From: Candidatus Zixiibacteriota bacterium
GTDB lineage: Bacteria; Zixibacteria; MSB-5A5; JAABVY01
NCBI GenBank assembly: GCA_014728145.1
Contig: WJMC01000138.1
Span: 1 to 41,305, forward strand
Length of the DNA stretch: 41,305 nt
Direction: 5' to 3'
The notes under the pieces were generated by a model. It was not told where the DNA came from and did not search any database. It worked only from the letters and a program-made list of their open reading frames with translations. Below, one piece after another: positions 10,389 through 35,309 of this stretch (position 1 is the first letter of the stretch; each line of letters opens with the position of its first letter). Position numbers and translations under genes: made by a program.

Positions 10389-10940
10389 ATGCATAACATG
10401 ACGCCTAAGAAGATGTTTTTAACCCGCGGTGTGGGGATTCATAAAGAAAAACTGAATTCATTTGAACTCGCGTTGCGCGATGCAAATATCGCCATGTACA
10501 ATCTGGTCACGGTCTCCTCGATTCTTCCGCCCGGAGCAAGAATTATCCCCAAGAATGAGGGACTCAGCCTCCTCGAACCGGGTCAGGTAGTCTATGCGGT
10601 CATGAGCCGTAACTCCACCGATGAGCCTAATCGCCTGATTTCAGCCTCAGTGGGAGTTGCAATTCCACAGGATCGTAAACAGTACGGTTACCTGTCCGAG
10701 CATCATGCCTACGGCTGGACCGGCCGTCATGCCGGCGATTATGCCGAGGACCTTGCGGTTGATATGCTCGCCACTACTATGGGACTGAAAATCAACCTGG
10801 ATAAGAGCTGGGATGAAAACCGCGAAATCTGGAAAGTTCAGGGCAAGATTATCCGTACACGCAATTCTACTCAATCCGCAAAGGGTCATAAGTCCGGTAG
10901 CTGGACAACCGTAGTAGCCGCCGCCATCATGATTCTATAA
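10389..10940 (+). CDS. pdaD: Pyruvoyl-dependent arginine decarboxylase
   Basis: A 183-residue proenzyme of the PvlArgDC family, which converts arginine to agmatine. Self-cleavage between the two serines of NLVTVSSILPPG (Ser43-Ser44) should leave a small beta chain and an alpha chain starting with a pyruvoyl group. Other family marks are MFLTRGVGIHKEKLNSFELA at the N-terminus, LEPGQVVYAVMS, and GYLSEHHAYG. The length fits. It heads an operon with a DHS-like gene (16 bases downstream) and agmatinase, which fixes its role at the start of polyamine synthesis. GGGAG lies about 8 bases before the ATG. Confidence 0.95.
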   Translation: MHNMTPKKMFLTRGVGIHKEKLNSFELALRDANIAMYNLVTVSSILPPGARIIPKNEGLSLLEPGQVVYAVMSRNSTDEPNRLISASVGVAIPQDRKQYGYLSEHHAYGWTGRHAGDYAEDLAVDMLATTMGLKINLDKSWDENREIWKVQGKIIRTRNSTQSAKGHKSGSWTTVVAAAIMIL

Positions 10941-10956
10941 TCCGGGAGGGAAGAGA

Positions 10957-11991
10957 TTGAAGAAATACCTCGATACGCCTACACAACCATTCGAAGTCGA
11001 TAAAAACTCCGATGTCTCCGATCTCCTCGAAAATATGAAAAAGATATCGTTTCAGGGTCGTACCCTGGCGCAGACATATTCGATCTGGAAAAAGATGTTA
11101 TCAGAGAAAACTTTGATCTTTCTGGGATTGTCGGGCGCTATGGTACCCGCCGGGATGCGCGAAATTTTGGTCTACCTGATCAAGAATCGATTCATCGACT
11201 GCCTGGTTTCTACCGGGGCCAACCTGTTTCACGACGCCCATGAGTCCATGGGGCATCACCACTATATAGGCAGTCATCTGGTCAATGACACGGCATTATT
11301 CGAACAAAAAGTGGACCGCATTTATGACACCTTTGCCGATGAAGATGAATTCCGCAAGCTGGAAAAACATATCGACGACTGGGCCCATTCCAATCTCGAT
11401 CTGTCTCGCGCGTATACCACACGTGAATTCTTCTATCTCTGGGGCGAGTATCTCAATAGCGTCAAAAAGCAGGACGGTATCTTGACTTCCTGCTATGAAG
11501 CAAATGTCCCGATCTACTGTCCTTCGATCGCGGATTCCTCTTACGGTATTGCACTGGCTGAACGCTTTAAGCGTGGTGGCAGAGTAGTCTTTTTCGATGT
11601 CATCGGCGATGTCGAGGAAACCGCTCTTCTGGCAGCCGAGGCACCCCAGACCGGGGTTGTATATTTAGGCGGTGGCGTACCGAAAAACTTCATCCAGCAG
11701 GCCGAAGTGACAGCGATAATCCATCTCGGCTTCGACTCCCCCGGGCACAGATACGCGATCCAGGTTACCACCGACGCTCCCCACTGGGGGGGATTGTCGG
11801 GATGCACTTTCGATGAAGCGGAATCCTGGGGCAAAATCGCCGAAGAAGCGGAAACTGTCACCTGCTACGCCGATGTTACCATCGCCCTCCCGATCCTGGC
11901 CACAGCACTGGCGCAGGGCGCAGAAGATATTGCCAGAAAGAGAAGCAAACCAGGTTTCTCAATGGGCAAAAAACTCGAGTTCAGCTACTGA
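10957..11991 (+). CDS. speY: Deoxyhypusine-synthase-like protein, probable homospermidine-type polyamine synthase (SpeY)
   Basis: A 344-residue NAD-dependent enzyme of the deoxyhypusine synthase fold. The catalytic lysine is present as Lys293 in ESWGKI, with Glu287 and Trp291 beside it. STGANLFHD (85-93) and LGGGVPKN (237-244) are nucleotide-binding stretches of the bacterial branch. Two residues that hold spermidine in human DHS differ: the KHH histidine is Asn in PKNF, and Asp of GSDSG is Leu280 in GGLSG. Bacteria lack eIF5A, so it should join free amines, for example making homospermidine from putrescine or an aminobutyl/aminopropyl derivative (inference). The start is TTG, with GGGAGGG (10944-10950) 6 bases upstream. 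Agmatinase follows after 2 bases. Confidence 0.88.
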   Translation: MKKYLDTPTQPFEVDKNSDVSDLLENMKKISFQGRTLAQTYSIWKKMLSEKTLIFLGLSGAMVPAGMREILVYLIKNRFIDCLVSTGANLFHDAHESMGHHHYIGSHLVNDTALFEQKVDRIYDTFADEDEFRKLEKHIDDWAHSNLDLSRAYTTREFFYLWGEYLNSVKKQDGILTSCYEANVPIYCPSIADSSYGIALAERFKRGGRVVFFDVIGDVEETALLAAEAPQTGVVYLGGGVPKNFIQQAEVTAIIHLGFDSPGHRYAIQVTTDAPHWGGLSGCTFDEAESWGKIAEEAETVTCYADVTIALPILATALAQGAEDIARKRSKPGFSMGKKLEFSY

Positions 11992-11993
11992 TT

Positions 11994-12872
11994 ATGGCCG
12001 GCTTCTGCGGACATCAATTCAATTTTCTGGGGCTTTCCGATGATGAATCAGTTTATGATAAGTCACGCTTCGTGATACTTCCGGTACCCTATGAACAGAC
12101 CACCACTTTTGGCAAGGGAACTGCCGACGGCCCGCGCGCGATAATATCCGCCTCACACGAGGTCGAGCTGTTCGATGATGAGCTACTGAGTGAACCATAC
12201 CATGCCGGGATTCATACTCTGCCCGAAATGGAAATTACCGCATCCGGCCCCGAAAAGATGACAGAATCAATCTACAAGAATTCATTGCCACTGATCGAAA
12301 ACGGCAAGATCATCTGTATGCTGGGAGGCGAACACTCGATATCGTCAGGCCTTGTTCAGGCATACCATGAAAAGTATCCGAGTCTTTCGGTTTTGCAATT
12401 CGACGCTCATGCTGACCTGCGTGAGACGTACCAGGGTCAGAGGTTTTCTCATGCCTGCGCGATGAAGCGGATTCGGGATTATGTGGATAAAACCGCTGGA
12501 ATCGGAATCCGCAATTACTCGAAAGAGGAGTATGAGCTTATCCAGAAGGATAATATTCCGATTGTGTCCGGATCAGAACTGGATATGCCTGACAAATGGC
12601 TGGATGATATTCTCAGCTATCTCACTGATGATATCTATATAACTATCGACTGCGACTTTTTTGATCCCTCCCTCATGCCCGGGGTCGGCACTCCCGAACC
12701 GGGTGGTGGCAGATGGTATCCGACATTGAATATCCTCAAAGCGGTGGCAAAACGCAAGAACATAGTCGGTTTCGATGTGGTCGAACTGATGCCGATTCCC
12801 GGCAGTTTAGTCTCCGAATTTACCGCCGCCAGGTTAATCTACAAGCTGATCGGATATATCACAGAGCTGTAA
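11994..12872 (+). CDS. speB: Agmatinase
   Basis: A binuclear manganese ureohydrolase of 292 residues that cleaves agmatine to putrescine and urea. The metal motifs are complete: GGEHS (111-115), DAHAD (137-141) and DCDFFDP (219-225), followed by PGVGTPEPGG. The GGEHS variant (Glu for Asp) is common in archaeal and deep-branching bacterial agmatinases. It lies 2 bases after speY and in the same operon as the arginine decarboxylase. Together the three genes form arginine to agmatine to putrescine plus a polyamine-coupling step. Arginase or another ureohydrolase is possible in principle, but the neighbours strongly favour agmatine. Confidence 0.95.
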   Translation: MAGFCGHQFNFLGLSDDESVYDKSRFVILPVPYEQTTTFGKGTADGPRAIISASHEVELFDDELLSEPYHAGIHTLPEMEITASGPEKMTESIYKNSLPLIENGKIICMLGGEHSISSGLVQAYHEKYPSLSVLQFDAHADLRETYQGQRFSHACAMKRIRDYVDKTAGIGIRNYSKEEYELIQKDNIPIVSGSELDMPDKWLDDILSYLTDDIYITIDCDFFDPSLMPGVGTPEPGGGRWYPTLNILKAVAKRKNIVGFDVVELMPIPGSLVSEFTAARLIYKLIGYITEL

Positions 12873-17567: not shown

Positions 17568-19499
17568 ATGGGACTCACATTAGCTTACAAAATCTTAAAA
17601 AAACATCTTGTCGACGGCGAACTTTGCGCCGGCAAGGAAATCGGAATAAAAATTGATCAGACTCTGACGCAGGACGCCACCGGTACTATGGCTTACCTGC
17701 AGTTTGAAGCGCTCGGGCTCAAGCAGGTCAAAACCAAACGTTCGGTCTCATACGTCGACCACAACACCCTGCAATCCGGATTCGAGAACGCGGATGATCA
17801 CCGCTACCTGCAGTCGGTCGCTAAAAAGTACGGGATCATGTTTTCAAAGCCGGGCAACGGTATCTGTCACCAGGTTCACCTGGAACGCTTCGCTGTACCG
17901 GGCATGACACTTCTGGGATCGGATTCTCATACTCCGACCGCCGGAGGCCTGGGTATGATCGCGATCGGCGCGGGTGGCCTGGATGTCGCCGTAGCGATGG
18001 GAGGCGGGCCCTTTTACCTGCCCTGCCCCAAAGTTGTAGGTGTAAAACTGACCGGCAAACTTCAGTCCTGGGTGACCGCCAAGGATATCATCCTCAAGGT
18101 CCTGAAGGAACTCACTGTCAAAGGTGGTGTCGGTAATATCATCGAATACCACGGCCCCGGCGTCAAACACCTGAGCGTGCCCGAACGCGCCACGATCACC
18201 AATATGGGAGCGGAACTGGGCGCGACAACTTCGGTCTTCCCGTCAGATGAAACCACACGAAAATTCCTGGCCGCCCAGGAACGTGAGAAATCCTACAAGG
18301 AAATGACTGCCGATAAAAATTGTGAATACGACAAACTGCTTGAAATCGATCTGGATAAACTCGAGCCGCTGATTGCCCAGCCTCATTCTCCGGATAATGT
18401 GGTCGAGGTTAAAAAGATCGCCGGCACACCGGTTCACCAGGTCTGTATTGGTTCCTGCACAAATTCATCTATCAAGGACTTGCGCACTGTCGGTAAAGTG
18501 CTTGAAGACAAGAAGGTTGCCGAGGAAGTTTCGCTTACGATTTCGCCCGGATCCAAGCAGGTCTTTACCATGGTGGCCGAGGACGGCTCGATGGCTAAAA
18601 TGATCTCTGCCGGCGCACGTATTCTGGAATCTGCCTGCGGACCATGTATCGGTATGGGTCAGTCACCGCCCTCGGGAGGTGTCTCGGTCAGGTCGTTTAA
18701 CCGCAACTTCGTCGGACGTTCCGGTACCAAGGATGCCCAGGTCTACCTGGCCTCGCCCGAGGTCTGTGTGGCGACCGCGATCAAAGGCAAGATCACCGAT
18801 CCCCGCAAACTGGGCGACCAGCCACGGGTCACGATGCCGAAGAAATTCAAGATAGACGATCGTAATATTGTCAAGCCCTCGAAGAAACCGGACACGGTCG
18901 AAATCGAGCGCGGTCCGAATATTGCTCCACTGCCGACCCGCGGTCCCCTGGAGGACACGATCAAGACGAAACTTCTGCTTCACTTAGAGGATAATATAAC
19001 CACCGATCATATCATGCCGGCCGGGGCCAAAATTCTGCCTTTGAGGTCGAATATTCCGGCTATCAGCGAATATGTTTTCTTCTATGTCGACCAGGACTTC
19101 TCACGCAAAGCCAAGGAAGCCAAAGCATCAGCGGTCGTCGGAGGTGAGAACTACGGCCAGGGCTCCTCGCGTGAGCATGCCGCTTTGGCCCCGATGTATC
19201 TCGGTGTTAAATTCGTAATCGCCAAATCATTCGCCCGGATTCATAAGACTAATCTTGTCAATTTCGGTATTCTCCCGTTGACGTTCAAGAACGCGGCCGA
19301 CTATGATCGTCTCAAAGCTGGTGACGAACTGGTGATTACTGATATCATTAAAAAGCTCGACAAGCGCGAAGATCTCACGGTCGAAAACAAGACTCAGGGC
19401 GCAAGCTTTGAGGTCAGCTACGACCTCTCCGACAGGCAAATCGAACTGCTCAAGGCCGGAGGTCTCTTGAATTACACGAAAAAAACGCAGGTTAAGTGA
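17568..19499 (+). CDS. acn: Aconitate hydratase (short, mitochondrial-type)
   Basis: A 643-residue [4Fe-4S] enzyme of the TCA cycle that isomerises citrate to isocitrate. Cluster ligands are Cys297 in GSCTNSS and Cys357/Cys360 in CGPCIGMG. GSDSHTPTAGGLGMIAIG and GENYGQGSSREHAA carry substrate-binding residues. The length fits the compact aconitase branch of about 640-750 residues rather than the AcnA or AcnB forms of about 900. A leuC or homoaconitase identity is unlikely because both halves are fused in one chain. A strong AGGAGG precedes the ATG. The stop overlaps the next start by one base (TGATG), so translation is probably coupled to gcvT. Confidence 0.96.
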   Translation: MGLTLAYKILKKHLVDGELCAGKEIGIKIDQTLTQDATGTMAYLQFEALGLKQVKTKRSVSYVDHNTLQSGFENADDHRYLQSVAKKYGIMFSKPGNGICHQVHLERFAVPGMTLLGSDSHTPTAGGLGMIAIGAGGLDVAVAMGGGPFYLPCPKVVGVKLTGKLQSWVTAKDIILKVLKELTVKGGVGNIIEYHGPGVKHLSVPERATITNMGAELGATTSVFPSDETTRKFLAAQEREKSYKEMTADKNCEYDKLLEIDLDKLEPLIAQPHSPDNVVEVKKIAGTPVHQVCIGSCTNSSIKDLRTVGKVLEDKKVAEEVSLTISPGSKQVFTMVAEDGSMAKMISAGARILESACGPCIGMGQSPPSGGVSVRSFNRNFVGRSGTKDAQVYLASPEVCVATAIKGKITDPRKLGDQPRVTMPKKFKIDDRNIVKPSKKPDTVEIERGPNIAPLPTRGPLEDTIKTKLLLHLEDNITTDHIMPAGAKILPLRSNIPAISEYVFFYVDQDFSRKAKEAKASAVVGGENYGQGSSREHAALAPMYLGVKFVIAKSFARIHKTNLVNFGILPLTFKNAADYDRLKAGDELVITDIIKKLDKREDLTVENKTQGASFEVSYDLSDRQIELLKAGGLLNYTKKTQVK

Positions 19500-27944: not shown

Positions 27945-28391
27945 ATGGTGAAAATCAATGACATAATACAGGCTCAGGGAGAGAGAAAGATCTTAAGCAT
28001 CAGCCCGCAGTCATCGGTCGGCGATGCTCTGGAACTGATAGTCAAAGAGCGTATCGGCGCACTGCCGGTATTCGAGGGAGAAGATAACCTGGTCGGAATC
28101 ATTACCGAGCGTGATATCCTCTGGCGGATGCACAAGGAAGGCCAGGACGCCCTCCAGCGTCAAGTCAGTGATGTGATGACCGCAAAAGTGATCGTCGGTG
28201 TGCTCGATGATGATATCGAGGTAGCTGAAACCTTCATGACAGTCAACAGGTTTCGTCATCTTCCGGTTATGGACGGCAGTAAGCTGGTGGGCATGATTTC
28301 AATCGGTGACCTGGTCAAGAGCCAGATCAAAAATCTGAAAGTACAGAACCGTTACCTTAAGGATTATATCACCGGCAAGTATCCCGGATGA
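27945..28391 (+). CDS. Stand-alone CBS-pair protein
   Basis: 148 residues consisting of little more than two CBS motifs: ISPQSSVGDALELIVKERIGALPVFEGEDNLV-type sequence at about 19-55, and VSDVMTAKVIVGVLDDDIEV to GMISIGDLVK at about 71-128. A short charged tail follows. Such proteins bind AMP, ATP or SAM and regulate a partner. The next gene, 73 bases downstream, is a ThDP enzyme, which could be the partner (inference). AAGGAG is 3 bases from the ATG at 27945 and 6 from a GTG at 27948, so the first residue is uncertain. Confidence 0.9.
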   Translation: MVKINDIIQAQGERKILSISPQSSVGDALELIVKERIGALPVFEGEDNLVGIITERDILWRMHKEGQDALQRQVSDVMTAKVIVGVLDDDIEVAETFMTVNRFRHLPVMDGSKLVGMISIGDLVKSQIKNLKVQNRYLKDYITGKYPG

Positions 28392-28464: not shown

Positions 28465-30102
28465 ATGAAAGTTTCCGACCTCATCGTCGACTGCCTCGAG
28501 GCCGAGGGAGTAAAGTATGTCTTCGGTGTTCCCGGTGAAGAGACCGAAGACCTGCTGTTTTCGCTGGAAAACTCCAGCATAGAATTTGTCCCCACGCGAC
28601 TGGAACTGGGGGCTGCTTTTATGGCGGATGTTTTCGGCAGACTGACCGGCAAGGCGGGTGTATGCCTGGCTACCCTGGGCCCGGGAGCCACCAACCTGAT
28701 CACCGGTGTCGCCGATGCCCATCTGGATAAAGCGCCGATAGTTGCAATCACCGGCCAGGGTTCTTCCGATCGCATTCATAAAGAAAGCCACCAGAATCTA
28801 GACATAGTAAACCTGTTTAAACCGATCACAAAGTGGAACGCCTCGATCCGCAATCCACATATCACGACCGAGGTTGTGCGCAAAGCTTTCAAGCTGGCGG
28901 AGATGGAAAAACCGGGAGCCACACATTTCGAACTGCCCGAGGATATCGCTGCCCGAGAATGCGATCTCGAACCGATTCAACCTGTCCGCGTACGTCGTGC
29001 CGCGCCCGACTACAAGGCGATCAACCAGGCCCTGGAACTTTTGGGGAAGGCAAAGAGACCTCTTATTCTGGCCGGCAACGGGGCGATTCGCAAGATGGCT
29101 TCCAAGCACCTGCGGGAATTCGTCCAGAAAACTGGCATACCGGTTGTCTCCACTTTTATGGGCAAGGGAGCGATATCGGACGACAGCCCCTGTTCACTCT
29201 ACACGGTCGGTCTGCAAGCGCGCGATATCCACATGGACGCGATAGAAAAAGCCGACCTGATCATAACGATCGGATACGATATTGCTGAATACGCCCCGGA
29301 GCATTGGAATAAACGTAAAGACAATAAAATTATTCATATAGATTTTATGCCGGCTGAGGTCTATGAGTTCTATCAGCCCGAAATCGAGATAGTATGCGAT
29401 ATCTCGGCCGTCCTGTGGGACCTGAATATACAGTTTAAAAGCGCTGAATCGCGCTATGACAGCGGATGGTACGAACCGATCCGCGAAGCGATCAAAGCAG
29501 ACATAGAATCCTACCGGCTAAATGAAAAAGATAAGTTTACCATACCGGGGGTACTGGCGATTATCAGAGATATTCTCAAGGCGGGTGATATCCTGATTTC
29601 AGATGTCGGCAGTCACAAAATGTGGATCGGCCGCAACTACCCGGTTTATGAACCGAACTCGGTGATAATTTCGAATGGCCTGGCCAGCATGGGAATCGCC
29701 CTTCCGGGGGGAATCGCCGCCAAGCTGGCGTACCCCGACAGGCGGGTGGTTGCGGCTATGGGTGACGGTGGATTCTTGATGAATTCGCAGGAGATCGAAA
29801 CCGCTTGCAGGTGTGGTGTCGGATTTACGATCCTGGTATTCAACGACAACGACTACGGTTTGATTTCCTGGAAGCAGATTGGACATACCGGCAAAAAATT
29901 CGGTACCGTCCTGACTAATCCCGATTATGTCAAGTACGCCGAAAGTTTCGGAATCGAAGGTTATTCACCGAAAACCCTCGATGAACTGCGCGCTGTGCTC
30001 GATACCACGATCAGCTCGCAGAAACTTACTATAGTCGAAATTCCAATCGATCCATCGGTCAATTACGAACTCAGCAAGAAACTGAATCAAAACAATAAAT
30101 AA
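28465..30102 (+). CDS. ThDP-dependent decarboxylase, acetolactate-synthase-like; candidate 2-oxoglutarate decarboxylase
   Basis: 545 residues with the three-domain layout of the acetolactate synthase/pyruvate oxidase family. Glu47 in TRLELGAAFMAD is the ThDP-activating glutamate. GDGGFLMNS (433-441) starts the Mg-ThDP motif, ending at about Asn460-Asn462. The classic HEQ around that glutamate is LEL. No small regulatory subunit gene (ilvN) follows. Instead a succinate-semialdehyde-type dehydrogenase starts 17 bases downstream. This pairing and the N-terminal half resemble the cyanobacterial 2-oxoglutarate decarboxylase (Synechococcus 7002 A2770), long annotated as acetolactate synthase. Catabolic acetolactate synthase remains possible. 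Confidence 0.85.
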   Translation: MKVSDLIVDCLEAEGVKYVFGVPGEETEDLLFSLENSSIEFVPTRLELGAAFMADVFGRLTGKAGVCLATLGPGATNLITGVADAHLDKAPIVAITGQGSSDRIHKESHQNLDIVNLFKPITKWNASIRNPHITTEVVRKAFKLAEMEKPGATHFELPEDIAARECDLEPIQPVRVRRAAPDYKAINQALELLGKAKRPLILAGNGAIRKMASKHLREFVQKTGIPVVSTFMGKGAISDDSPCSLYTVGLQARDIHMDAIEKADLIITIGYDIAEYAPEHWNKRKDNKIIHIDFMPAEVYEFYQPEIEIVCDISAVLWDLNIQFKSAESRYDSGWYEPIREAIKADIESYRLNEKDKFTIPGVLAIIRDILKAGDILISDVGSHKMWIGRNYPVYEPNSVIISNGLASMGIALPGGIAAKLAYPDRRVVAAMGDGGFLMNSQEIETACRCGVGFTILVFNDNDYGLISWKQIGHTGKKFGTVLTNPDYVKYAESFGIEGYSPKTLDELRAVLDTTISSQKLTIVEIPIDPSVNYELSKKLNQNNK

Positions 30103-30118
30103 CCCTAAGAGGTGAAAT

Positions 30119-31477
30119 ATGAAGACAGTCAATCCAGCCACCGGCGAAGTCATAAAAGATTACAGCGAACACAATCCCGAACAGATCGACCAGATACTAG
30201 GCGATGTAGATAAAACCTGGCTGGAATGGCGCGAATCGGATTTTGGAAAACGCCGCGAATTGATGAATAAGGCCGCTTCTGTACTGCGCGATAACCAGGA
30301 CGAATATGCGCGCGAGATGTCGATGGAAATGGGTAAACCGATCAGCGAGTCCCGCGCTGAGGTGGAAAAATGCGCCTGGGTCTGCGAATACTACGCCGAA
30401 AACGCCGAAAAATTTTTAGCCGATGAGATAATCGAAACCGACGCTAAAACAAGCTTTGTCGCCTTTCAGCCGATCGGTACCGTATTGGCGATCATGCCCT
30501 GGAATTTTCCATTCTGGCAGGTTTTCAGGTTCGCCGCTCCGGCCCTGATGGCGGGCAACACCGGCGTACTCAAGCATGCTTCCAACGTACCCGGAAGCGC
30601 ACTCAAAATTGAAGAGGTCTTCCGTAAGGCTGGATTTCCAGAAAATGCTTTCCGCACACTGTTGATAGGATCCTCCGCGGTGGAAAAGGTTATCAGGGAT
30701 GATCGTATCAAGGCAGTAACTCTCACAGGCTCCGAACCGGCCGGTATGAAAGTGGCCGCCACCGCTGGAAACGTGCTCAAAAAGACCGTCCTCGAACTGG
30801 GTGGTTCAGATCCGTATATCGTTTTGGAAGATGCCGATATGCCGACCTGCGTTAACACTTCCGCCAGGGCTCGTATGATAAACACCGGTCAGAGCTGTAT
30901 TGCCGCCAAACGCTTTATAGTAGTCGAATCCCGTCTGGAGGAGTTCGAACATGCCCAGGCGGAAATTATGGGCAATATGAAAGTCGGTGATCCACTCGAC
31001 GAAGAGACACAGGTTGGCCCTTTGGCTCGTATGGACCTCCTGAAGGAACTGGATGAGCAGGTCCAGCAGTCGCTCACCATGGGCGCGCGACTTCTGACCG
31101 GCGGTAGAAAAAAAGACGGTCCGGGGGCGTTTTATCTGCCGACGGTGCTGACCAACTGCAAGAAAGGTATGAAAGCCTACGATGAAGAGACTTTCGGCCC
31201 GGTATCGGCAATAATTCCGGTCTCGGATATGGAGGAGGCTATTGCGGTCGCCAATGACTCATCGTTCGGGCTGGGTGGATCGGTCTGGACACAGGATCCC
31301 GAAAAAGGTGAATACGTCGCCCGAAAGGTCGTGACGGGCGCGATGTTTGTCAACGGTATGACCAAATCCGACCCCCGTCTGCCGTTTGGCGGAGTCAAAA
31401 AATCCGGCTACGGACGCGAGTTGTCTCATTACGGCATTCGCGAGTTCGTCAATATCAAAACGATCTGGATGGGTTGA
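30119..31477 (+). CDS. Succinate-semialdehyde dehydrogenase (GabD1/Sad type)
   Basis: A 452-residue aldehyde dehydrogenase. Catalytic Cys260 lies in NTGQSCIAAKRF and the general base Glu226 in LELGGSDP. MPWNFPFWQVFR and KHASNVPGSAL are the substrate- and NAD(P)-binding parts. The short length and the QSCIAAKRF signature are typical of the GabD1/YneI (Sad) branch, which oxidises succinate semialdehyde to succinate. It sits 17 bases after the ThDP decarboxylase gene with an AGAGG ribosome binding site. Together they could convert 2-oxoglutarate to succinate. The exact aldehyde is inferred. A strong terminator follows. Confidence 0.9.
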   Translation: MKTVNPATGEVIKDYSEHNPEQIDQILGDVDKTWLEWRESDFGKRRELMNKAASVLRDNQDEYAREMSMEMGKPISESRAEVEKCAWVCEYYAENAEKFLADEIIETDAKTSFVAFQPIGTVLAIMPWNFPFWQVFRFAAPALMAGNTGVLKHASNVPGSALKIEEVFRKAGFPENAFRTLLIGSSAVEKVIRDDRIKAVTLTGSEPAGMKVAATAGNVLKKTVLELGGSDPYIVLEDADMPTCVNTSARARMINTGQSCIAAKRFIVVESRLEEFEHAQAEIMGNMKVGDPLDEETQVGPLARMDLLKELDEQVQQSLTMGARLLTGGRKKDGPGAFYLPTVLTNCKKGMKAYDEETFGPVSAIIPVSDMEEAIAVANDSSFGLGGSVWTQDPEKGEYVARKVVTGAMFVNGMTKSDPRLPFGGVKKSGYGRELSHYGIREFVNIKTIWMG

Positions 31478-31498: not shown

Positions 31499-31527
31499 GC
31501 CCGGCCTGATGGCGGGGCTTTTTTTTG
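31499..31527 (+). terminator. Intrinsic terminator after the aldehyde dehydrogenase gene
   Basis: GCCC and GCC (31499-31506) pair with GGC and GGGC (31511-31518) around TGAT, seven base pairs with one mismatch. A run of eight T's follows. It closes the CBS/ThDP/aldehyde-dehydrogenase unit. Confidence 0.85.
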
Positions 31528-32101: not shown

Positions 32102-32314
32102 ATGGATTCATCAAACCTGCTGGTGATTTGTGCGATCGCCTTTGTGGCGGTCTTCGTCCTGCTGGTAATCCTGGCGGTAATCATGCGCGCGATTATCGCG
32201 CTCTTTCCGCAGGCCGACAGCGTCGAAGATGCCGCATTGTATGCCGCGATCACCGCAGTCGCTCAAGCCAACTATCCTGGAACAAAAATCACAAAAATTG
32301 AGGAAATACAATGA
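32102..32314 (+). CDS. oadG: Small OadG-like (gamma) subunit of a Na+-pumping decarboxylase
   Basis: 70 residues: one N-terminal membrane helix (about 5-30) and a short soluble tail (AALYAAITAVAQANYPGTKI). Size, topology and place before alpha and beta subunit genes fit the gamma chain that holds the decarboxylase complex together. Sequence similarity in such small subunits is weak, so the call leans on context. Its stop overlaps the next ATG by 4 bases. GGGGGAGA gives a very strong ribosome binding site. Confidence 0.75.
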   Translation: MDSSNLLVICAIAFVAVFVLLVILAVIMRAIIALFPQADSVEDAALYAAITAVAQANYPGTKITKIEEIQ

Positions 32315-34170
32315 TAACAGCCAAAAAGCCCAAAACAGTTCGTGTGATGTTCACACCTTTCCGCGACGGGCTTCAGAGCTCGTTCGGCGGTAAGGTGCGC
32401 CTGAATGATTTTCTGCCGGCAATGAAGCTGGCGGCCGAAGCTGGAATTCGCCACTTCGAATTCGGTGGTGGAGCCCGATACCAGGCACCCTACTTCTACC
32501 TCGGCGAAGATCCGTTCGAGGATATGCAGAAAATCCGGGACACAGTCGGTCCCGATGCCGACCTGCAGATTTTGACCCGTTCCGTCTCAGGAGTAACCCT
32601 GACCACGCAGTCAATCGAGGGTCTGCAGCTTCAGGCCAAGCTGATGAAAGAGTATGGTACTACCTGGGATCGCAACTTCGATTACATGAACGATGTACGC
32701 AACCTGATCAATACCGGCAAGCCGATCGTCGAGGCTGGAATGCACCACCAGTGCTGTATCGCCCTGATGGGTCTGCCGTTCGAATCCGACAAGGTTCATA
32801 CACCGGATTTCTATATCAATATCGGCAAACAGCTTCTCGAAGGCGATGTGCAGATCGATTCCCTCTGCCTCAAGGATGCCAGCGGGACGACTGATCCGAA
32901 TACGATCTATGAAACTGTTAAGGGGCTCAAGAAGATTATGCCCTCGGATATGCTCCTCTGGCTTCATACCCATGACACCGCTTCAACCGCGGTCGCCTGC
33001 TATATGGCCGGGATCGAGGGCGGAGTCGACGGTATCGATCTCTCCTGTCGCCCGATGGCTTCCGGAACGGTTCAGCCGGATGTGCGTTCGATGGCTCATG
33101 CCCTCAAGGGCACAGGCTACTCTCTCGATATAGATCCCAAGCGGATGCCCGAAATCGAGCGCGAACTGGCCGAGTTGATGAAGGAATATAATTTCAACCC
33201 GACTACGACCTCGGCTGATGCTCGTGTACTCGGCTTCCCTATGCCGGGTGGTGCGATCGGACCCAATGTGCACATGATGGTTAAAGCTGGTATTCTCGAT
33301 AAATACTCCGAAGTTCTCGAGGAATTCCCGGTTGTGGTAAAAGCCGGAGGCGCCTGGACCTCGGTTACCCCGGGTAGCCAGCAGTATTGGTTGCAGGCTT
33401 TCAACAACGTGCTCTATGGACGCTGGGAGAAAATCAATGACGGCTACGGTAAAGCCGTGCTCGGATACTTTGGACGCACACCGCTTCCCCCGGATCCGGA
33501 AGTTGTCAAGAAAGCCTCTGAGCAACTCGAGATGGAACCGTTTACCGGAGATCCCCTGGAGGCCGCGCCGAAAAATATCGGCAAAGCGAAAGAAGCTCTC
33601 GAGGAACGCAGTTTGCCGGTCAACGACAAGAATATCTTCCTGGTCCTGGCTTCGATGGTGCCCGGCAAGAAGATGGAACTCAACGAGGGTATCCGTCTGC
33701 TGACCGGAAAACCGCGAATCGATATTCCTCTCAAGAAGAAAGATGAACCGAAGCCTGATAAAAAAGCGGTATCCGCACCGCAGGCCAGAATGGAATCCGC
33801 GCCAACCGTCAGCGGACCGGTCAAATCCCGTTTGACCGTGGAGGAAAACGGTCGCAAACGAACCTTTACAATAACTATGGAGCCGGCAGGTGGCGGAGCC
33901 TCACAACCCGCGCCTCAGGCAGTCGAAACATCCGCGCCGGCCTCCGACAACGGCACCCCGGTGCATCATTCTTTCGCTGGATCAGTTGAAGTAGTCGATA
34001 TCAATGTCAAAGTCGGCGATTCCGTCTCGGAAGGACAGGTTATCGCCGCGGTCGAGGCGATGAAAGCCAAGCATGACATCAAAGCGCCGAAATCAGGCAA
34101 GGTCTCGAATATCCAGGCCGAAATCGGCGATGAAATCGATTCAACTCAACCGATCTTAACCATCTCATAG
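32311..34170 (+). CDS. oadA: Biotin-dependent decarboxylase/carboxyltransferase alpha subunit (OadA/PycB-like)
   Basis: 619 residues. Residues about 8-470 form the carboxyltransferase TIM barrel: FRDGLQS (17-23, metal-ligand Asp19), Lys188 in CLKDASG (carbamylated in relatives) and HTHD (219-222, metal ligands). A Pro/Ala-rich linker (about 480-545) leads to a biotinyl domain whose acceptor is Lys585 in VEAMKAKHD. Standard OadA/PycB has LRDAHQS and EAMKM; the FRDGxQS and AMKA forms mark a sister branch, so oxaloacetate is the likely but unproven substrate. It is placed between the gamma and beta genes, 11 bases before oadB. Confidence 0.9.
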   Translation: MITAKKPKTVRVMFTPFRDGLQSSFGGKVRLNDFLPAMKLAAEAGIRHFEFGGGARYQAPYFYLGEDPFEDMQKIRDTVGPDADLQILTRSVSGVTLTTQSIEGLQLQAKLMKEYGTTWDRNFDYMNDVRNLINTGKPIVEAGMHHQCCIALMGLPFESDKVHTPDFYINIGKQLLEGDVQIDSLCLKDASGTTDPNTIYETVKGLKKIMPSDMLLWLHTHDTASTAVACYMAGIEGGVDGIDLSCRPMASGTVQPDVRSMAHALKGTGYSLDIDPKRMPEIERELAELMKEYNFNPTTTSADARVLGFPMPGGAIGPNVHMMVKAGILDKYSEVLEEFPVVVKAGGAWTSVTPGSQQYWLQAFNNVLYGRWEKINDGYGKAVLGYFGRTPLPPDPEVVKKASEQLEMEPFTGDPLEAAPKNIGKAKEALEERSLPVNDKNIFLVLASMVPGKKMELNEGIRLLTGKPRIDIPLKKKDEPKPDKKAVSAPQARMESAPTVSGPVKSRLTVEENGRKRTFTITMEPAGGGASQPAPQAVETSAPASDNGTPVHHSFAGSVEVVDINVKVGDSVSEGQVIAAVEAMKAKHDIKAPKSGKVSNIQAEIGDEIDSTQPILTIS

Positions 34171-34181
34171 AAGGCGCAAGA

Positions 34182-35309
34182 ATGGAGACATTAACAGAGC
34201 TGATACAGAATTCGGGGCTGGCCAATCTCGACTGGGGCAACCTGGTAATGTTCGTGATTGCCGGGGTTTTGATCTATCTGGCGATCACGAAGAACTATGA
34301 ACCACTTCTATTGATTCCGATCGGTTTCGGAACGATCCTGGCAAACCTGCCTTTAGCCGAGATGGGGGCCTATGACAATGGAATAATCGCGCTGATATAC
34401 AAATCAGGAATCAAGACCGAGCTTCTCCCCCCGATCATCTTCCTGGGGGTAGGTGTGCTGACCGATTTTCGCCCGCTTCTGGGACGTCCGATCACCTTTA
34501 TGCTGGGGGCCGCCGCACAGCTGGGTATCTTCGTGGCCGCGCTCGGGGCGGCTTACCTTTTGGGCTTCACTTACAAAGAAGCCGCCGCGATAGGTATAAT
34601 CGGTGGTGCTGATGGCCCGACATCGATCTTTTTGGCCTCACAGCTGGCACCTCACCTGCTGGGACCGATCGCCGTGGCGGCCTACAGCTACATGTCGCTG
34701 GTACCGATAATCCAGCCCCCGATAATCAGGATGTTCACCAGTAAAAAGGAACGCGAGATCGATATGCCACAGGCCCGTCCGGTTTCCAAAACCGCGGTAA
34801 TCCTGTTCCCGATCGTGACCGGAATCATCGCTTCACTGGCAATCCCTTCGGCCGCTCCACTGATCGGGCTTCTGATGTTCGGCAACCTGCTCCGTGAATG
34901 CGGTGTGACCGAACGCCTGCGCAAAACCGCGGGAGGCGCATTAATCGATATCGTCACGCTCTTTCTGGGTCTGGCTGTCGGCGCAACTATGGCCGCGGAA
35001 CACTTCTTGACCTGGCAGACGATCATGATCCTGGTGCTGGGCGCGTTCGCATTTGCCTTCAGTACGGCTGGTGGTTTGGTTTTCGCTAAAATCATTAACC
35101 TGTTCTTACCCGGTACCAAAAAGATCAACCCCTGTATCGGCGCCGCCGGTGTTTCGGCTGTACCGATGGCCGCCCGGGTGGTCCAGAAATTTGTCTCGGA
35201 TCAGACTAACGGCAGGGTCAATCCGCTGATGCCCGCCATGGGACCCAATGTGGCCGGTGTAATCGGGTCTGCAGTTGCGGCTGGAATCTTTTTGAGCCTG
35301 CTGACATAA
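34182..35309 (+). CDS. oadB: Sodium-ion-translocating decarboxylase beta subunit
   Basis: A 375-residue membrane protein with about nine to eleven helices. It decarboxylates carboxybiotin and exports Na+. GIIGGADGPTSIFLASQLAP contains the essential Asp of the family. NPCIGAAGVSAVPMAARVVQKF and GPNVAGVIGSAVAAGIF are the other two signature stretches. The length is slightly below OadB of enterobacteria (about 433) and close to the MmdB/GcdB and short OadB forms. The gene follows oadA by 11 bases and ends at a strong terminator. The sodium gradient it makes could feed the CaCA antiporter encoded earlier in the window (inference). Confidence 0.95.
   Translation: METLTELIQNSGLANLDWGNLVMFVIAGVLIYLAITKNYEPLLLIPIGFGTILANLPLAEMGAYDNGIIALIYKSGIKTELLPPIIFLGVGVLTDFRPLLGRPITFMLGAAAQLGIFVAALGAAYLLGFTYKEAAAIGIIGGADGPTSIFLASQLAPHLLGPIAVAAYSYMSLVPIIQPPIIRMFTSKKEREIDMPQARPVSKTAVILFPIVTGIIASLAIPSAAPLIGLLMFGNLLRECGVTERLRKTAGGALIDIVTLFLGLAVGATMAAEHFLTWQTIMILVLGAFAFAFSTAGGLVFAKIINLFLPGTKKINPCIGAAGVSAVPMAARVVQKFVSDQTNGRVNPLMPAMGPNVAGVIGSAVAAGIFLSLLT

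Follow-up and report, generated by a model that had tools for sequence, protein, structure and literature searches.

The window analysed here, a stretch of 41,305 nucleotides from a Candidatus Zixiibacteriota genome, contains two adjacent genes that in all likelihood (a probability of roughly 0.8) form an operon for a 2-oxoglutarate decarboxylase/succinic semialdehyde dehydrogenase (SSADH) route, a CoA- and ferredoxin-independent branch beside KorABC and SucCD. The first product, a ThDP-dependent enzyme, would convert 2-oxoglutarate non-oxidatively into succinic semialdehyde and CO2, and the second, a Sad-type dehydrogenase, would convert the semialdehyde into succinate with NAD(P)+, probably NADP+. 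The route would thereby constitute an extra branch in an otherwise ordinary oxidative TCA cycle. The substrate, cofactor, direction and physiological role ascribed to the pair are predictions from sequence comparison. Such a bypass is known from cyanobacteria; what appears to be new is a member in the phylum Zixiibacteriota and its place as a parallel route.

Organization of the gene pair

The features of the locus are as follows.

27945..28391, + strand: gene for a protein with two CBS domains, upstream of and outside the module
28465..30102, + strand: gene for the ThDP-dependent enzyme (545 aa), intact ORF
28600..28608, + strand: codons for L-E-L around the ThDP glutamate Glu47 (Glu50 of the Microcystis enzyme MaKGD), read from the sequence
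29617..29619, + strand: codon of Lys385 (MaKGD Lys386); Ala in AlsS, Gln in IlvB and IlvI
29872..29874, + strand: codon of Lys470 (MaKGD Lys471); Gln in AlsS and IlvB, Trp in IlvI
30119..31477, + strand: gene for a Sad/YneI-type SSADH (SsaD/A2771-like, 452 aa), intact ORF
~31499..31527, + strand: terminator-like hairpin with U-tract closing the two-gene unit (pattern scan; fold −20.9 kcal/mol, z −4.0)

A 545-residue ThDP enzyme preceding an SSADH had been noted in a preliminary description of this DNA, and both ORFs are indeed intact. The intergenic gap measures 16 nt (30103–30118), not 17 bases as first given. The ribosome-binding-like sequence AAGAGGTG precedes the ATG of the SSADH gene, and the hairpin 3′ of this gene carries a U8 tail. 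As previously stated, no ilvN-like small subunit is encoded by the neighbouring genes. The closest named relatives are Candidatus Zixiibacteriota. The host genome is a 3.12-Mb draft (95% complete), in which the absences reported below are profile searches without matches; the ThDP protein is the sole match to PF02776 (TPP_enzyme_N) in the whole of it.

Residues of the ThDP-dependent enzyme

The ThDP protein scored 705 bits (cut-off 509) with the NCBIfam model PRK08322, named “acetolactate synthase large subunit”, but remained under the equivalog cut-offs of AlsS (PRK08617, 479 vs 510 bits; TIGR02418, 432 vs 551 bits) and IlvB (TIGR00118, 392 vs 538 bits). Its residues were compared with those of MaKGD, whose contacts to 2-oxoglutarate or ThDP are given by residue number in PMC10418658; the comparison is thus one by published residue numbers. 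Identical in both proteins, at constant offsets, are E50, Q254, V382, H385, K386, A408, M410, D435, D462, Y465, L467 and K471. These include residues of the 2-oxoglutarate pocket (Q254, V382, K386, A408, L467, K471) as well as those examined for ThDP binding (E50, M410, D435, D462, Y465). In the available text of PMC10418658, docking and not mutation is the basis for the contacts of K386 and K471 (a salt bridge from Lys471 to 2-oxoglutarate in the docked model), and variants of neither residue are reported there.

Catabolic AlsS (4rjj), the closest solved structure family, shares the ThDP core motifs, but differs at the pocket positions (F254, A386, Q408, L410, M467, Q471), while IlvB and IlvI of E. 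coli lack K386, A408 and K471. Both lysines occur without exception in the 29 tree-set homologues (see below) that are followed by a Sad-type SSADH gene, whereas Q254 varies even among these.

The protein differs from MaKGD at A384 (Ser) and Y531 (Pro), and in the LEL around the ThDP glutamate. Since Tyr531 is a docked ThDP contact in MaKGD, its replacement by Pro was counted against the predicted decarboxylase identity. The preliminary description had also pointed to LEL in place of HEQ at Glu47. The glutamate does lie in the context T-R-L-E-L, but the flanks vary within the Zixibacteria clade (MEQ, HES, HEL, LEL, IEG), nearly all other homologues having HEQ. LEL was therefore ruled out as a functional signature and is best regarded as lineage drift.

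The partner dehydrogenase

The best PDB matches of the second protein (513 bits) were 4it9/3vz1, structures of the SSADH of Synechococcus 7002, and its alignment with Synechococcus A2771 is gap-free, with 51% identity. For the cyanobacterial enzyme (3VZ3), residues N131, R139, K154, S157, E228, C262 and S419 have been tested or seen at the substrate in the structure (PMC7510979), and all seven, which comprise catalytic residues and residues that bind succinic semialdehyde, are kept in the window's protein. The presence of S157 and K154 leads to the prediction that it probably prefers NADP. The NCBIfam equivalog cut-offs were missed (PRK09406, 607 vs 730 bits; PRK13968, 478 vs 855 bits), which marks the protein as a divergent member of the Sad/GabD1 group; its assignment is hence based on the residues and the A2771 match.

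Distribution and phylogeny

The ThDP type of the window, defined at an identity of at least 69%, was found in 15 of the 98 genomes of the phylum that were searched. The downstream sequence was readable in 14 of these, and each has the same SSADH gene next on the same strand, which argues against a chance pairing. The pair is also present in Neomarinimicrobiota, Balneolota, Omnitrophota, Acidobacteriota, Bacteroidota and others. Both gene orders occur, the reversed one in haloarchaea, Peregrinibacteria and Nitrospirota. A few of the bins named as archaeal may contain wrongly assigned contigs. Beyond the pair itself, the loci compared share no widely conserved neighbour; one Neomarinimicrobiota locus has acnA and then a fumC-like gene after the pair.

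A quick tree, in which AlsS forms a long branch and which does not include A2770 or MaKGD, placed the ThDP protein in a clade of 37 members (support 99) outside AlsS and IlvB. Sad-linked homologues are split from IlvB/IlvI with support of 100 and from AlsS with support of 92. Within the clade, 32 of the 37 members, from about 10 phyla, adjoin a gene for a Sad-type SSADH. The cyanobacterial bypass would accordingly extend to Zixibacteria, Neomarinimicrobiota, Balneolota, Omnitrophota, haloarchaea and others.

In Nitrosopumilus and relatives (L059, L061, L063, L064, L069, L073, L074, L076, L080), PRK08322-type enzymes with the KGD-like lysines were observed without an adjoining aldehyde dehydrogenase gene.

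Comparison with known systems

The closest counterpart is the cyanobacterial pair OgdA/KGD (SYNPCC7002_A2770; Microcystis MAE_06010) and SsaD (A2771). It has the same gene order, decarboxylase then SSADH, and is alike in protein sizes, pocket residues and SSADH subfamily; its decarboxylase was likewise once annotated as acetolactate synthase. Unlike in the cyanobacterial case, the Zixibacteria host also has KorABC and SucCD. No cyanobacterial homologue of the ThDP protein was present among the best 80 matches of the contig scan, and no cyanobacterial decarboxylase reference was found in plasmids or the PDB.

The literature search for the bypass outside cyanobacteria yielded a single mention, a 2-oxoglutarate decarboxylase/SSADH route predicted in Thiomicrorhabdus (cited in PMC9751133). 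There the route is presented as a substitute for an absent 2-oxoglutarate dehydrogenase, in contrast to the situation in Zixibacteria.

In Haloarcula sp. JP-L23 (CP050015), a locus with genes for a CBS protein, an SSADH and an “acetolactate synthase” encodes a ThDP enzyme 60% identical to that of the window, which adjoins a Sad-type SSADH. However, the SSADH gene lies upstream in this case, and the CBS protein is about 400 aa long and only 28% alike.

Carboligation is frequent among ThDP enzymes of this fold. The protein might accordingly be a carboligase that takes the succinic-semialdehyde carbanion derived from 2-oxoglutarate and couples it to glyoxylate or another acceptor, with the SSADH only clearing leaked semialdehyde. 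Mycobacterial Rv1248c, cited in PMC10418658, offers a precedent. This explanation is nevertheless very improbable: the one-to-one pairing with SSADH is conserved, and the cyanobacterial enzymes form succinic semialdehyde, as assayed by SSADH coupling (PMC10418658).

The acetolactate synthase annotation

According to its automatic name, the ThDP protein would be an acetolactate synthase, biosynthetic or catabolic, with an incidental SSADH neighbour. The name of PRK08322, the catabolic enzymes being the closest solved structures, and a ketol-acid reductoisomerase (KARI)-like protein encoded in the host genome speak for this explanation. The latter (L118:5117-6136, G000 contig C86) scores above the ilvC cut-off and adjoins pdxJ, and it was counted against the decarboxylase identity of the ThDP enzyme. 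On inspection by eye, however, its HEL motif position reads HQI, so that it seems to have Gln in place of one of the metal-binding glutamates of KARI proteins.

IlvD was found in 14/14 controls but in neither the host genome nor any of the 98 searched from the phylum, and no pathway is known by which acetolactate could then lead to branched-chain amino acids. Given the absence of IlvD and an ilvC-level protein apparently short of one metal-binding Glu, a biosynthetic acetolactate role is very unlikely. When the tree position outside AlsS and IlvB, the pocket residues unlike those of AlsS, IlvB and IlvI, the missed equivalog cut-offs and a Sad-type SSADH pairing kept over many phyla are also considered, the acetolactate synthase explanation as a whole is scarcely credible. 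The proposal that this is a 2-oxoglutarate decarboxylase with its SSADH, misnamed acetolactate synthase, is thus well backed by the conserved residues, the adjoining SSADH gene, the tree and the missing IlvD, and the automatic name is very probably wrong. This would correct the widespread PRK08322 name for a large Sad-linked clade, and genome-scale models should give these genomes no credit for acetolactate synthesis.

The lack of any IlvD/EDD-family match in the 98 genomes also suggests auxotrophy for Val, Leu and Ile, or another route to them.

The pair in the context of the TCA cycle

The preliminary description went further and proposed that the pair replaces 2-oxoglutarate dehydrogenase and closes the TCA cycle, as in Synechococcus sp. 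PCC 7002. In line with this, a profile search did not find SucA in the host genome, where the only strong E1_dh match is the pyruvate dehydrogenase E1 alpha subunit. Family searches detected citrate synthase, an NAD-type isocitrate dehydrogenase and COX1, and an aconitase gene lies in the window at 17568–19499. However, sucC, sucD, korA, korB and korC stand side by side on contig C245 of the host and make up an entire korABC-sucCD operon; all 15 genomes that carry the window's ThDP type also encode KorA. Of the searches proposed earlier (sucAB and korAB), the first therefore agreed with the proposal, while the second returned the full kor set, the very finding named beforehand as contrary to it. 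Replacement of Kor by the pair was rejected, and closure of the cycle in place of 2-oxoglutarate dehydrogenase is unlikely.

Because korABC-sucCD occurs in the genome and KorA in all 15, the decarboxylase/SSADH route is better regarded as a parallel branch than as a replacement, and the presence of the pair would not imply that the usual 2-oxoglutarate route is missing. The presence of Kor was also counted against the proposed route, as it leaves the need for it unexplained. A bolder reading, possible though on the whole doubtful, is that the two routes from 2-oxoglutarate to succinate serve different conditions, so that the node could be run in either direction, and that a module spread over about 10 phyla has been misnamed. 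Kor/SucCD, reversible and ferredoxin-linked, would then carry reductive or anaerobic flux, and the irreversible, NAD(P)H-forming decarboxylase/SSADH route would carry oxidative flux.

COX1 was detected in 11/15 genomes with the ThDP type and in 55/83 of the rest of the phylum (p 0.77). Since these frequencies do not differ, an aerobic role of the pair is not supported, and a link of the ThDP type to an aerobic terminal oxidase was rejected. The GABA shunt was likewise rejected as the main source of the semialdehyde, as no match to glutamate decarboxylase was obtained in the host genome.

Another ThDP type, sharing about 53% identity with that of the window, was observed in 17 other Zixibacteria genomes (L103-L116, L129-L132, L135), paired with a lactaldehyde-dehydrogenase-like enzyme about 30% identical to the window SSADH. 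Nine of these 17 genomes have no KorA match (Fisher p 1.9e-4, kinship ignored) and all 17 have COX1, which makes them better candidates than the window for a bypass of the true replacement kind.

Other genes of the window

The CBS protein encoded upstream of the pair had been considered its possible energy-state regulator. Just two genomes, both from the same family, keep the CBS gene there, along with the preceding flavoprotein gene, and in the one of these with enough sequence the ABC-F gene is kept as well; the CBS gene is absent from the other Zixibacteria loci compared. The linkage is confined to one family, where it belongs to a more extensive stretch of synteny, and the regulator hypothesis was rejected.

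Consecutive genes for a pyruvoyl-dependent arginine decarboxylase, a deoxyhypusine-synthase-like protein and an arginase/agmatinase-family protein (10389–12872) represent a probable bacterial polyamine cluster. At 32311–35309, an OadA-like alpha subunit with a fused biotin domain (271 bits vs an oadA equivalog cut-off of 757) is encoded next to a good gene for the beta subunit of a Na+-translocating decarboxylase.
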